From assembly GCA_030621915.1 (NCBI GenBank), contig JAUXGV010000003.1, forward strand, positions 1 to 42,656: a DNA stretch of 42,656 nucleotides, written 5' to 3'. A program made the position numbers and the translations under genes. Shown here in pieces: positions 20,932 through 25,743 of this stretch (position 1 is the stretch's first letter; every line of letters begins with the position of its first letter). The notes beneath the pieces were generated by a model. It did not search any database. It was not told where the DNA came from and saw only the letters and a program-made list of their open reading frames with translations. The stretch comes from Flavobacteriaceae bacterium (GTDB lineage Bacteria > Bacteroidota > Bacteroidia > Flavobacteriales > Flavobacteriaceae).

Positions 20932-21774
20932 ATGAAAATTATAAAAAATTCACTGATTCAGGGAAAACATCAAAAACCAATATTGGTTGATTTGTTTTAT
21001 TTAGAAAATAATCAGTCCAAAAATATAGTGATTTTTTGCCATGGTTATAAAGGCTATAAAGATTGGGGAGCCTGGGATTTAGTAGCGAAAAAGTTTGCTG
21101 AAAATAACATGTTTTTCCTGAAAATGAATTTTTCTTATAACGGCGGAACCGAAAATCAACCTATTGATTTTCCTGATTTGGAGGCATTTGGTAACAATAA
21201 TTTTATAAAGGAATTGGATGATATTGGTACAGTTTTGGACTGGATCCCTCAAAACAATTCCATTCAAAATGAAATTAATCTAAATAATATTACCTTGATT
21301 GGCCATTCCCGAGGCGGTGGGACTGTGGTAATTAAGGCAAAGGAAAATCCAAATATCACCAAAGTAATCTCATGGGCAGGAGTATCAGATTTTGAATCAA
21401 GATTTCCAACTGGGAAACTTTTAAAAAAATGGAAGGAAAATGGTGTTGCCTATGTAACTAATGCAAGAACAAATCAGGAAATGCCACATTATATTCAATT
21501 TTATACAAATTTTAAAGAAAATGAAGAGAGGCTTTTTATCAAAGATGCCGTAGAGAGATTAAATATTCCCTATTTAATAATTCACGGAAATGATGATGAA
21601 ACCGTTTCTATTAAGGAGGCCAAGAACTTAAAATCATGGAATTTCAAAAGTCAATTATATATCATTGAAAATGCCAATCACACCTTTAACAGTAAACAAC
21701 CCTGGGATCATCCCAATCTTCCATCTCATCTTGATACGGTGGTGCAAAAATCAATAATCTTTATTGTTTCTTAA
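20932..21774 (+). CDS. Alpha/beta-hydrolase, dienelactone-hydrolase-like
   Basis: This 280-residue protein has the oxyanion-hole strand IVIFCHGYKGYKDWG (32-46), the nucleophile elbow GHSRGG with Ser126, an acid at Asp222 (HGNDDETV) and His250 (NANHTF), which together form a complete catalytic triad. It has no signal peptide, so it is cytoplasmic. The substrate is probably an ester or amide; relatives include acyl-peptide or dienelactone hydrolases. Its start directly follows the AddB-like stop, giving coupled translation but no clear functional link. A hairpin with a T-run about 180 nt downstream probably ends the transcript. Confidence 0.88.
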   Translation: MKIIKNSLIQGKHQKPILVDLFYLENNQSKNIVIFCHGYKGYKDWGAWDLVAKKFAENNMFFLKMNFSYNGGTENQPIDFPDLEAFGNNNFIKELDDIGTVLDWIPQNNSIQNEINLNNITLIGHSRGGGTVVIKAKENPNITKVISWAGVSDFESRFPTGKLLKKWKENGVAYVTNARTNQEMPHYIQFYTNFKENEERLFIKDAVERLNIPYLIIHGNDDETVSIKEAKNLKSWNFKSQLYIIENANHTFNSKQPWDHPNLPSHLDTVVQKSIIFIVS

Positions 21775-21922
21775 AAATTTTGATTTCTAAACGTTTAAAA
21801 GTACTTGGATTTTTTCTTTTAAATATGTTAACCTCTTTCAATTTTATTCATTAACAATTGAAAAGAAAAATTAAACTTTATTACAAAGTTATTAAAATTT
21901 AAAAGAAAGAGTATTTTGGATG

Positions 21923-21953
21923 TATTGTTTCCTATTCTCGTAGGAATACAATA
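21923..21953 (+). ncRNA. Candidate structured RNA element upstream of nrdB
   Basis: A 12-bp hairpin with one bulged T and loop TTCTCG is followed 3 nt later by a terminator. Its sequence (CTATTCTCGTAG core) resembles the hairpin at 23214-23231 behind nrdB (CTATTCGTAG core), and the flanking bases AATAC..AAT are also shared. It may be part of a small RNA, a 3' untranslated region of the hydrolase mRNA, or a repeat. It matches no RNA family that I know. Confidence 0.35.
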
Positions 21954-21956
21954 ATT

Positions 21957-21979
21957 AAGAGTCAATTTTATTGGCTCTT
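21957..21979 (+). terminator. Terminator before nrdB
   Basis: The stem AAGAGTCAA (21957-21965) / TTGGCTCTT (21971-21979) includes one G-T pair, has a 5-nt loop and is followed by a T-run. It ends the AddB-hydrolase transcript or a small RNA. Confidence 0.8.
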
Positions 21980-22205
21980 TTTTTATTTAACAATTTCACT
22001 TTTCATAAATAACTTCATAAACTGTTGTGGGATTGAATTTTAGATATTTTTTTATCCAATTTAGAAAAATGTTATTCAACCTTGTTAAAAACTTTATCTC
22101 CAATGTGAATAAAATGAATTTTATATTTAAGTAAAATGTGGAATCTTTGTTACTTACAAATTCCCTCATTGTATTTTATATTTATCAATTAAAAACACAT
22201 TTAGA

Positions 22206-23177
22206 ATGTCGTCTATAGAACCCATATTGCAAGAAAATAAAAATCGATTTGTGATTTTTCCAATTCAACACCATGACCTTTGGGAATGGTATAAGAAACA
22301 GGAAGCGAGTATTTGGACGGCGGAAGAAATTGATTTACATCAAGATGTTGTCGATTGGGAAAATAAATTAAATGATGACGAACGATATTTCATCAAACAT
22401 ATCTTAGCCTTTTTTGCGGCTTCTGATGGAATTGTAAACGAAAATCTAGCTGAAAACTTTGTTAGTGAGGTTCAATATACCGAAGCAAAATTCTTTTATG
22501 GATTTCAAATAATGATGGAGAATATTCACTCTGAAGTATATTCGTTATTAATTGACACCTACGTTAAAAATGATGTTGAAAAAGATGAATTATTTCGGGC
22601 TATTGATATTTTTCCTGCGATAAAGGAAAAAGCTGACTGGGCTCTTAAATGGATAGATAGTGATAGTTTCGCAGAACGTTTGATTGCCTTTGCTGCAGTA
22701 GAAGGAATATTTTTTTCAGGTAGTTTCTGTTCAATTTTTTGGATGAAGAAAAGAGGCCTGCTACCGGGTTTAACATTTTCAAATGAATTAATATCAAGAG
22801 ATGAAGGTCTGCATTGTGATTTTGCAGTGCACTTACATAACAATCATATTATAAACAAAGTTCCTAAAGAAAGAATTACACATATTCTTACCAATGCACT
22901 GGATATTGAAAGAGGCTTTATTACGGAATCTTTACCCGTTAGCCTCATCGGGATGAATGCTAAATTAATGACACAGTATCTAGAATTTGTAACTGATAGA
23001 TTGTTGCTAGAATTTGGTTGCGAAAAAGTTTATAATGCCTCAAACCCGTTTGATTTTATGGAAATGATCTCCTTAGAAGGTAAAACTAACTTCTTTGAAA
23101 AAAGAGTGTCTGAATATCAAAAAGCAGGGGTTAAATCAGGGGGAACTGGAAGCATTAGCTTCGATGCCGATTTTTAA
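22206..23177 (+). CDS. nrdB: Class Ia ribonucleotide reductase small subunit (R2)
   Basis: This 323-residue protein carries the full di-iron site: Asp74 (AASDGIV), Glu105 and His108 (ENIH), Glu166 (AAVEGIFF), Glu200 and His203 (EGLH), with radical tyrosine Tyr112 (HSEVYSLL). The C-terminal FDADF tail is the R1-docking peptide. Sequence and tail resemble eukaryotic R2 more than E. coli NrdB, as is usual in Bacteroidetes. It generates the tyrosyl radical used by NrdA to reduce ribonucleoside diphosphates in the cytoplasm. nrdA follows after 184 nt of structured non-coding sequence, in the order nrdB-nrdA. Confidence 0.97.
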
Positions 23178-23361
23178 ATTAAAACTCTATAATAACATAG
23201 AGGATTCTATACTTTTTCTATTCGTAGAAAATACCAATTATTTCAAATGTCCCGTTGTAGAAACCGGACGAACAAACCAAAATAACTATTATTTTCCCAA
23301 TGTATGGGAAAAATCCCTGTAAAAGGCAGGGCATCTAACCAACTAAAAAAAGAACCAAAGT
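23178..23361 (+). ncRNA. Candidate structured leader between nrdB and nrdA
   Basis: This 184-nt spacer contains four short stems: 23185-23190/23197-23202, 23214-23220/23225-23231 (loop TTCG, a stable tetraloop), 23292-23299/23305-23312 (TTTTCCCA/TGGGAAAA) and 23315-23319/23327-23331 (CCCTG/CAGGG). None ends in a T-run, so it is not a simple terminator. Its base composition is less AT-biased than other spacers. It could be a cis-regulatory RNA or a processing site that sets the NrdA:NrdB ratio. No known riboswitch class was recognised. Confidence 0.4.
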
Positions 23362-25743
23362 ATGTTTGTATTAAAAAGAGACGGCAAAAAAGAGCCAGTG
23401 ATGTTTGACAAAATCACTGCTAGAATTCGTAAAATGTGTTACGGGTTGAACAAATTAGTTGATCCCACCAAAGTAGCCATGCGAGTGATTGAAGGATTAT
23501 ATGATGGAGTATCAACTTCAGAATTAGATAATCTTGCCGCCGAAACTGCAGCAACCATGACAGTTCAACATCCAGATTATGCAAAATTAGCAGCGAGAAT
23601 TGCTGTGTCAAATTTACATAAAAAAACTAAAAAAACTTTTTCAGAGGTTGTTACAGATTTATATACTTATGTAAATCCACGCACGGGTAAAAAAGCACCA
23701 TTAATAGCCAATGATACCTATAAGGTAATTCAGGATAATGCAGCTAAATTAGATTCAACAATAATTTACAACCGAGATTTCAACTACGACTATTTTGGTT
23801 TTAAAACCTTAGAACGCTCTTATTTATTGAAATTGAATGGTCAGGTTGTTGAACGACCTCAACATATGTTAATGAGAGTTGCTATTGGAATTCATTTGGA
23901 AGATATTGATGAGGCCATTGCTACTTATGAATTGATGAGTAAAAAATTCTTTACCCATGCAACTCCCACCTTGTTCAATGCCGGAACGCCAAAACCTCAA
24001 ATGTCATCTTGTTTTTTACTCCAAATGCAAGACGATAGTATCGACGGAATTTATGATACCTTAAAACAAACTGCAAAAATATCTCAATCAGCTGGAGGAA
24101 TTGGATTGTCTATTCATAATGTAAGGGCAACCGGTTCCTATATTCGAGGAACCAATGGTACATCCAACGGAATTGTACCCATGCTAAAGGTTTATAACGA
24201 TACTGCCCGATATGTCGATCAAGGAGGAGGAAAACGCAAAGGTTCTTTTGCTATGTATATTGAGCCTTGGCATGCAGATGTTTTTGATTTTCTTGATTTA
24301 AGAAAAAATACAGGAAAAGAAGAAATGAGAGCGAGGGATTTATTCTATGCCATGTGGATTCCAGATTTGTTTATGAAACGAGTTCAGGAAAATGGGGAAT
24401 GGACATTGATGTGTCCAAATGAATGTCCACATTTATTTGATACCTACGGAGATGAATTTGAAAAGTTGTATCAGGGTTATGAAAAAGTAGGCAAAGGTCG
24501 TAAAACAATTAAAGCACGCGAATTATGGGAGAAAATTTTGGAGGCTCAAATTGAAACTGGAAATCCTTATATGTTATATAAAGATGCTGCCAACCGTAAA
24601 TCAAATCAAAAGAATTTAGGCACTATTCGTTCTTCAAACTTGTGTACAGAAATTATGGAGTATACGGCCAAAGATGAAGTTGCAGTATGTAACCTGGCAT
24701 CCATAGCTGTTTCAATGTTTGTAAATGAAGATAAGGATGGAATTAAATATTTCAATCATAAAAAGCTATTTGATGTAACGAAAAAAGTAACGCGTAACTT
24801 GGATACGGTAATCGACAGAAACTATTATCCGGTTCAGGAGGCTGAAAACTCAAATTTTCGTCATAGACCTATAGGCTTAGGAATTCAAGGCTTGGCTGAT
24901 GCATTTATCATGTTACGTATGCCTTTTACATCTGATGAAGCCAAACAATTAAATCAGGACATTTTCGAAACTATTTATTTTGCTGCAGTTAGCTCTTCGA
25001 TGGAAATGGCAAAAGCTAAAGGTCCTTACTCAACTTTTAAAGGTTCCCCGATGTCTGAAGGAGAGTTTCAATTCAATATGTGGAATATCTCTGAAGATGA
25101 TCTGAGTGGCAGATGGGATTGGAAAAAATTAAGAAAGCAAATAATGAAAAATGGCATTAGGAACTCCTTACTGGTAGCGCCTATGCCAACCGCCTCAACA
25201 TCTCAAATTTTAGGTAATAATGAGGCCTTTGAACCATATACTTCGAATATTTATACCCGTAGAGTCTTATCGGGTGAATTTATTGTTGTAAACAAACATT
25301 TATTGGAAGACTTGGTTGAACTTGGACTATGGAATAATAACATGAAAGAGGATATTATGCGTGCTAATGGATCTATTCAGCATATAGATGTAATTCCTCA
25401 GGATTTAAAAGAATTGTATAAAACAGTTTGGGAATTAAGTATGAAGGACATTATAGATATGGCTCGACAAAGAGGATATTTTATTGATCAATCTCAATCT
25501 ATGAATTTGTTTATGAAGGATCCTGATTATGGAAAATTGACCTCTATGCATTTTTATGCCTGGAAATCTGGATTAAAAACAGGTATGTACTATTTAAGAA
25601 CTAAATCAGCGGTTAACGCGATTCAATTCACAGTTTCGAATGATAAGAAAAAAGAAGATGAACCATTGACAGCTGATGAATTAAAAGAAATGCTCATCGC
25701 ATCTCAAAACAATCCTGATGATTGTGAGATGTGTGGTTCCTGA
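23362..25743 (+). CDS. nrdA: Class Ia ribonucleotide reductase large subunit (R1)
   Basis: This 793-residue protein has an N-terminal ATP-cone (about 1-95, [21 protein letters not shown]). The active-site cysteines are Cys217 (SSCFLL), Cys428 (SNLCTEI, with Asn426 and Glu430) and Cys443 (AVCNLAS). The radical-transfer tyrosine pair is in GMYYLRT and the C-terminal redox pair in DDCEMCGS (Cys788, Cys791). The Cys428-Cys443 spacing follows the eukaryotic enzyme rather than E. coli. It reduces NDPs to dNDPs with the radical supplied by NrdB. The ATP-cone implies dATP feedback. A 13-bp terminator follows 23 nt after the stop. Confidence 0.97.

Follow-up and report, generated by a model that had tools for sequence, protein, structure and literature searches.

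In the 42,656-nt stretch of flavobacterial DNA analyzed here (contig JAUXGV010000003.1, hereafter the window), the ribonucleotide reductase gene nrdB is flanked by two hairpins. We hold, with moderate confidence, that the hairpins belong to two separate RNA structures: a terminator-ended, sRNA-like unit upstream of nrdB, and a cis-acting leader in front of nrdA. An earlier note on this DNA had proposed a single RNA element common to both genes, and the corrected reading takes away a misleading tie between the two hairpins.

The level of ribonucleotide reductase and the balance of its subunits must track DNA synthesis, and RNA-level control of this enzyme in Bacteroidota is little explored as far as the literature searched can tell. 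A search of the open literature turned up no publication that describes a leader RNA of nrdA in flavobacteria.

Organization of the locus

On the forward strand, a gene for a PD-(D/E)XK nuclease is followed by an alpha/beta hydrolase gene, hairpin 1, nrdB, the leader that contains hairpin 2, and an nrdA gene with an ATP cone. Coordinates are given in Table 1. Completeness of the assembly is 77%, and its GTDB genus (g1) was sampled with 22 genomes.

Table 1. Features of the hydrolase-nrdBA region, with positions in the window
Feature	Position	Strand	Basis
alpha/beta hydrolase gene	20932-21774	+	Pfam Abhydrolase_1; constant upstream neighbour of the hairpin 1 unit (19/19 carriers)
promoter-like box TGTTAACC-N16-ATTAAC	21826-21855	+	two-part box in 19/19 units loosely, 14/19 strictly
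conserved core AAAGAAAGAGTATTTTGGATGT of the sRNA-like unit	21902-21923	+	comparison of relatives
hairpin 1	21923-21953	+	fold; loop letters differ in relatives
intrinsic-terminator-like stem and T-run, 3' end of unit	21957-21985	+	stem 21957-21979, then T-run
conserved, putative nrdB promoter region	22083-22149	+	motif counts in nrdB upstream regions
TGTTAAAAACTT	22083-22094	+	part of the conserved nrdB promoter-like region
DnaA-box-like TGTGAATAA	22104-22112	+	part of the conserved nrdB promoter-like region
AATCTTTG	22142-22149	+	part of the conserved nrdB promoter-like region
nrdB, class I ribonucleotide reductase small subunit	22206-23177	+	Pfam Ribonuc_red_sm
nrdB-nrdA spacer (structured nrdA leader)	23178-23361	+	z -3.85
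leader stem 1	23185-23202	+	local folding
leader stem 2 (hairpin 2)	23214-23231	+	local folding
leader stem 3	23249-23269	+	local folding
leader stem 4	23292-23312	+	local folding
leader stem 5	23315-23331	+	local folding
A-rich unpaired stretch with CTAACCAACT, 5' of the nrdA start	23332-23361	+	sequence, fold
nrdA with N-terminal ATP cone	23362-25743	+	Pfam Ribonuc_red_lgC, Ribonuc_red_lgN, ATP-cone

Two hairpins with a weak likeness

Both hairpins described in the earlier note exist. Hairpin 1 has 13 pairs and one bulge, and its 91-nt context folds with a z of -3.76, a level reached by 1 of 200 shuffles. Hairpin 2 has 7 pairs and a loop of 4. The 184-nt spacer that contains it is indeed structured (-35.3 kcal/mol; none of 200 shuffles was equally low), but local folding with stems of at least 6 pairs yields five stems rather than the four originally counted.

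The likeness of the two cores, CTATTCTCGTAG and CTATTCGTAG, is literal but weak. They have 10 bases in common, with a 2-base insertion and similar flanks; each has one exact match in the window, and the pair is not listed by the repeat finder. Stem 2 of many Lutibacter-type leaders likewise starts with GTTTCC and finishes with GGAA(G/A)C. Such resemblances speak for the view that the hairpins are copies of one RNA element co-regulating nrdB and nrdA. Against it, the 18 further carriers of the surrounding unit do not preserve the loop letters CTATTCTCGTAG of hairpin 1. A 24-base stretch of the hairpin, searched in 60 genomes with up to 3 mismatches, occurred once, in the window itself.

An sRNA-like unit downstream of the hydrolase gene

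Hairpin 1 is part of a unit (unit 1, 21826-21985) that comprises a promoter-like box, a GAGTATTTTGGATG core, the hairpin and a terminator. The TGTTAACC box, core, hairpin and terminator are common to the nrdB upstream regions of the window and of G004, G007, G010 and G019, with one inserted base in the core AAAGAAAGAGTATTTTGGATGT of G004. A genus search combined with reading of the loci placed the unit in 19 of the 22 g1 genomes (G000-G004, G006-G015 and G017-G020). The hydrolase is present without the unit in G016, readable for only 164 nt past the gene, and in G021; no hydrolase was found in G005, which is 67% complete.

The unit lies directly 3' of the hydrolase gene in all 19 carriers (13 read, plus G000, G004 and G006; G007, G010 and G019 by coordinates). 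The gene that follows is nrdB in five of them (G000, G004, G007, G010 and G019); in 12 others it encodes a protein of about 300 aa and, in G009, is truncated at the end of the contig. G006 has nrdBA on a different contig from unit 1 and the hydrolase. In G018, hydrolase and unit are followed by a different class I ribonucleotide reductase (L165, contig C79, 3314-6355), made of a 424-aa NrdB with an ATP cone and a 587-aa NrdA without one, with almost no spacer between the genes.

Hairpin and terminator fold in all 19 carriers despite differing letters, and covarying pairs are found in the terminator. RNAalifold recovered the terminator alone from unit 1, and stem 3 alone from 12 sequence-aligned nrdA leaders; it finds little in both cases because the stems fail to align by sequence.

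Model R1, run on 397 genomes of the family, scored 83.6-91.1 bits in G000, G003 and G011, which are the g1 genomes of that sample. Outside the genus, scores in the 397 genomes were at most 42.8 bits under stricter filters, and the two Lutibacter-type genomes of the sample (G156 and G352) gave no R1 match. Most of the 27 loci read outside g1 lack the unit core, viral contigs contain no exact match to the core pattern, and no Rfam 15 family reaches its gathering threshold at unit 1, the best sub-threshold hit being Yfr19 (26.5 bits of 70). At one locus, L189 (G170, 36 bits), bases 1-13 of the core are matched exactly and are followed by a terminator-like stem, on the reverse strand around base 1515 and within no long open frame. 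It is possibly a distant copy of unit 1 in another genus.

Unit 1 probably represents an sRNA with a length of about 120 nt; alternatively, it may be a conserved 3' UTR of the hydrolase gene. Its transcription would start from its own promoter-like box and stop at the intrinsic terminator. A conserved target for such an sRNA was sought and the idea set aside: among 19 loci read that contain the exact complement, just two are orthologous to each other, and these lie within coding sequence of G013 and G017. According to PMC9723704, the Rfp RNAs of Flavobacterium psychrophilum are short and intergenic, with strong secondary structure and probably independent transcription, all of which would apply to unit 1. 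Unlike them, unit 1 is a putative transcript, likened by description, that is confidently found in the genus of the window only.

The pattern TGTTAACC-N16/17-AYTAAY has 40 matches in the 22 genomes, 7 of them in the unit itself, versus 8 matches to the reversed pattern. This two-part motif probably acts as an alternative type of promoter, perhaps that of an alternative sigma factor; it is absent from the sigma motifs SM1-6 in the passages of PMC9723704 considered here. There, the SM5 promoter box of F. psychrophilum is given as TAnnTTGY. The conserved core TATTTTGG differs from this box by its last base and may therefore act as a promoter element rather than as RNA.

The two-part motif also precedes a recurrent gene whose start is of the KIRTIAFYNVENLFD type. 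In 7 of 17 further motif regions (L298, L301 and L304-L308), the downstream sequence holds the beginning of a single type of gene, KIRT[IV]AFYNVENLFD or its DNA.

The region between unit 1 and nrdB

Among 100 distinct nrdB upstream regions, TGTTAAAAACTT (with at most one mismatch) was detected in 93 and TGTGRATAA in 81, with both of them in 74; a -7-like box was seen in 84. Since these conserved promoter-like motifs lie between the terminator and nrdB, the gene most likely starts its own transcript there, which would begin anew from a promoter 3' of the unit 1 terminator. Hairpin 1 is probably not part of an nrdB leader, given that both a terminator-like site and the conserved promoter-like region intervene.

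The same arrangement bears on the possibility that the terminator is a conditional attenuator of nrdB, with hairpin 1 as its sensor. In the window the terminator is on the nrdB strand, 220 nt upstream of the gene, as would suit an attenuator. However, the unit is followed by a different gene in 12 of 19 genomes and is not located before nrdB in G006, and the promoter-like region that comes after it is conserved across genera. We regard attenuation as highly unlikely.

In E. coli, DnaA controls nrdAB. The sequence TGTGGATAA resembles a DnaA box, and the combination of TGTTAAAAACTT, TGTGRATAA and AATCTTTG suggests replication-linked control of nrdBA in Flavobacteriaceae. The parallel with E. coli lies in the DnaA-box-like TGTGRATAA 5' of nrdB. 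Control by DnaA in E. coli acts at the DNA level on the operon promoter, unlike an RNA element.

Ancestry of nrdBA and its flanks

The nrdBA genes of the window group with another genus. In NrdA and NrdB trees of 41 sequences with midpoint root, NrdA of the window and of G006 falls in a clade with 11 Lutibacter-type rows (100/99), with an inner clade of four (97/86); the NrdB proteins of both genomes are likewise placed in the Lutibacter-type clade (86/86; inner clade 99/94). A separate NrdA clade is formed by 11 of the 14 g1 rows (100/100), and G019 NrdA groups with Polaribacter (99/97).

The hydrolase of the window has its nearest relative in g1 (G018, 75%) among 59 genomes with a match, in a search of 100 genomes from which the Lutibacter-type genus was absent. 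For the 146 bases 5' of nrdB, the best matches are G006 and other g1 genomes. The transporter gene located after nrdA shows 84% with G352 versus 73% with G018, the sole g1 locus with this gene that was compared. The leader of the window resembles Lutibacter-type leaders with diverged letters, and the G019 spacer contains a Polaribacter-type hairpin, GCCAAAAAGTGGGTGTTTTGGC.

Because the hydrolase and upstream sequence are g1-like while nrdBA and the downstream transporter are Lutibacter-like, nrdBA and its leader were probably replaced from a Lutibacter-type donor, and the two hairpins would then probably differ in origin. The pattern may instead result from an assembly chimera. Replacement of ribonucleotide reductase genes seems to have been repeated in the genus, with Lutibacter-type genes in the window (22206-25743) and G006 (L002) and a Polaribacter-type NrdA in G019 (L007). 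As the window leader matches its Lutibacter-type NrdBA and the G019 hairpin its Polaribacter-type NrdA, one might speculate, quite tentatively, that the structured nrdA leaders of Flavobacteriaceae are a regulatory module that travels with nrdBA upon replacement from other genera.

These data also bear on the proposal that the two hairpins are one element. Unit 1 adjoins the hydrolase in 19 of 19 genomes, and nrdBA and the upstream unit group with different genera. In G006, the unit stays with the hydrolase away from nrdBA, and the 89-nt nrdB-nrdA spacer of that genome has other stems. Pairing of the unit core with the nrdA leader was rejected, since the longest exact complement in the window is 8 nt, a length reached by 28 of 300 shuffled spacers; complementarity is thus at chance level. 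A shared element is, in our judgment, very improbable.

Folding of the nrdA leader

Spacers between nrdB and nrdA from 97 distinct loci (five spacers under 60 nt, duplicates and spacers with N being omitted) gave a mean z of -1.93, with 34 of 97 below -2. Length-matched stretches located 5' of nrdB gave a mean z of -0.18, with 5 of 95 below -2; the control value for L048 in this set comes from a wrongly cut stretch. Other co-directional gaps (n = 55) had a mean z of -2.57, which was -3.06 in the 38 with a T6 run (terminators) and -1.46 in the 17 without (5/17 below -2). For the 55 nrdB-nrdA spacers without a T6 run, the mean z was -2.16, and 25 were below -2. The like-for-like comparison, -2.16 versus -1.46, indicates that the fold excess of the spacer as a class is modest, making it only moderately unusual.

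The fold is strong in the clade of the window, in agreement with the structured leader postulated by the earlier note. The window and 11 Lutibacter-type genomes (an nrdA match was obtained in 11 of the 14 genomes of that genus, g132) each fold into four or five stems (6 pairs or more per stem), mostly in similar places, with a mean z of -4.41. As these stems come from folding, they pair by construction, and shuffles are the control: the number of stems alone is unexceptional, shuffles matching the count in 2.7 to 56% of cases. Stem letters vary among the leaders of this clade, and there is little change in linkers such as TAACCAAC. In the centroid fold, the window leader ends with 30 nt that are A-rich and unpaired.

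Several lineages have no leader. In L027-L030 and L046 the nrdB-nrdA spacer is 22-52 nt long, and in some Flavobacterium species it is short and lacks a fold. Spacers that diverge without kept pairing, which the earlier note named as a refuting outcome for its proposal, do therefore exist, in the lineages where the spacer is short or unfolded.

Covariation in the leader

In Flavobacterium, base pairs are kept through compensatory changes. The leader there is about 265 nt long (2236-2500 in L091, and 16 other loci) and contains five covarying stems. The set analyzed, aligned by sequence alone, includes 17 of 20 long spacers; near-duplicates L090, L097 and L104 were omitted, and the short-spacer species L081, L102, L106 and L110 were excluded. 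Changes on both sides affect 18 of 40 pairs, compared with a mean of 8.5 in shuffled and 3-9 in slid controls. The five stems have 91.3% paired cells versus 86.5 in shuffled controls, stem 1 being the weakest (77% paired), and the covariation score is 0.294 versus 0.202. The joints around the AAACACGCAATGTTT hairpin (AAACA-CGCAA-TGTTT) are nearly invariant. In a Tenacibaculum set (7 of 8 leaders, with L077 omitted), double changes are found in 4 of 15 pairs.

In the clade of the window, support for compensatory change comes from close pairs only. In the three closest Lutibacter-type genome pairs, each taken in both directions, double compensatory changes make up 11 of the 40 changed pairs, versus 5 of 122 in slid controls. 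In stem 3, two double changes separate G459 from G462, whose leaders are 93% identical. The share of changed pairs that is kept shows no excess over slid controls among Lutibacter-type pairs with at least 60% identity (0.319 vs 0.374) or at 70% identity (0.416 vs 0.410); double changes at 70% identity amount to 0.158 versus 0.041.

Could the stems be an ordinary intergenic fold that drifts without a function of its own? Other gaps without T6 runs are folded as well, as their mean z indicates, several genera have short or unfolded spacers, and pairs are not kept in excess when distant genomes are compared. Against drift stand the mean z of the window's clade, the covariation in 17 Flavobacterium leaders, and the two double changes that stem 3 shows between the closely similar G459 and G462. 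We consider drift rather unlikely.

Possible function of the leader

An exact TAnnTTTG occurs in just 3 of 100 spacers, and a promoter within the spacer was discarded as a candidate. No terminator-like site was found on the forward strand of the window spacer. Given the near-absence of a sigma-A-like box and the lack of a terminator in the spacer, nrdBA is probably one transcript, in which hairpin 2 would be one of five stems between two co-transcribed genes.

Bacteroidota mostly lack Shine-Dalgarno signals. In the model that we favor, the stems are cis-acting structural elements, spaced along a long intercistronic stretch that they fold while the A-rich nrdA start region stays open; translation or mRNA stability of nrdA would in this way be set separately from that of nrdB. 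The leader is thus seen, most likely, as a cis-acting intercistronic structure that tunes or insulates nrdA expression. Post-transcriptional control of NrdA/NrdB levels, as put forward in the earlier note, is possible on the basis of the leader.

A more specific hypothesis is that the leader is a riboswitch or a protein-binding leader that senses nucleotide supply. The nearly invariant joints around the AAACA-CGCAA-TGTTT hairpin of Flavobacterium are as expected of an aptamer or protein-binding site. On the other hand, stem and loop letters have strongly diverged in the window's clade, and no Rfam 15 family reaches the gathering score in the leaders of the window, L091 and L063; in the whole window, tRNA-Phe alone is above threshold. 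Sensing of this kind appears improbable to us. Known structured 5' or intercistronic leaders, such as riboswitches and ribosomal-protein leaders, also have covarying stems just 5' of a metabolic gene; the nrdA leader differs from them in having no such Rfam match and in the free variation of its stem letters in the window's clade. Returning to a cis-acting intercistronic structure, the covarying Flavobacterium leader, which has no Rfam match at threshold, offers a concrete, testable object in a genus with genetics.

Additional structure was noticed in five Lutimonas-type spacers (L006, L011, L012, L013 and L016). They have in common a stretch resembling TTATTAAC..TTGTTAACAA and, a short distance 5' of nrdA, a GGCTCATG..CATGAG hairpin; a pseudoknot 5' of nrdA is apparent by eye only in Lutimonas-type spacers.
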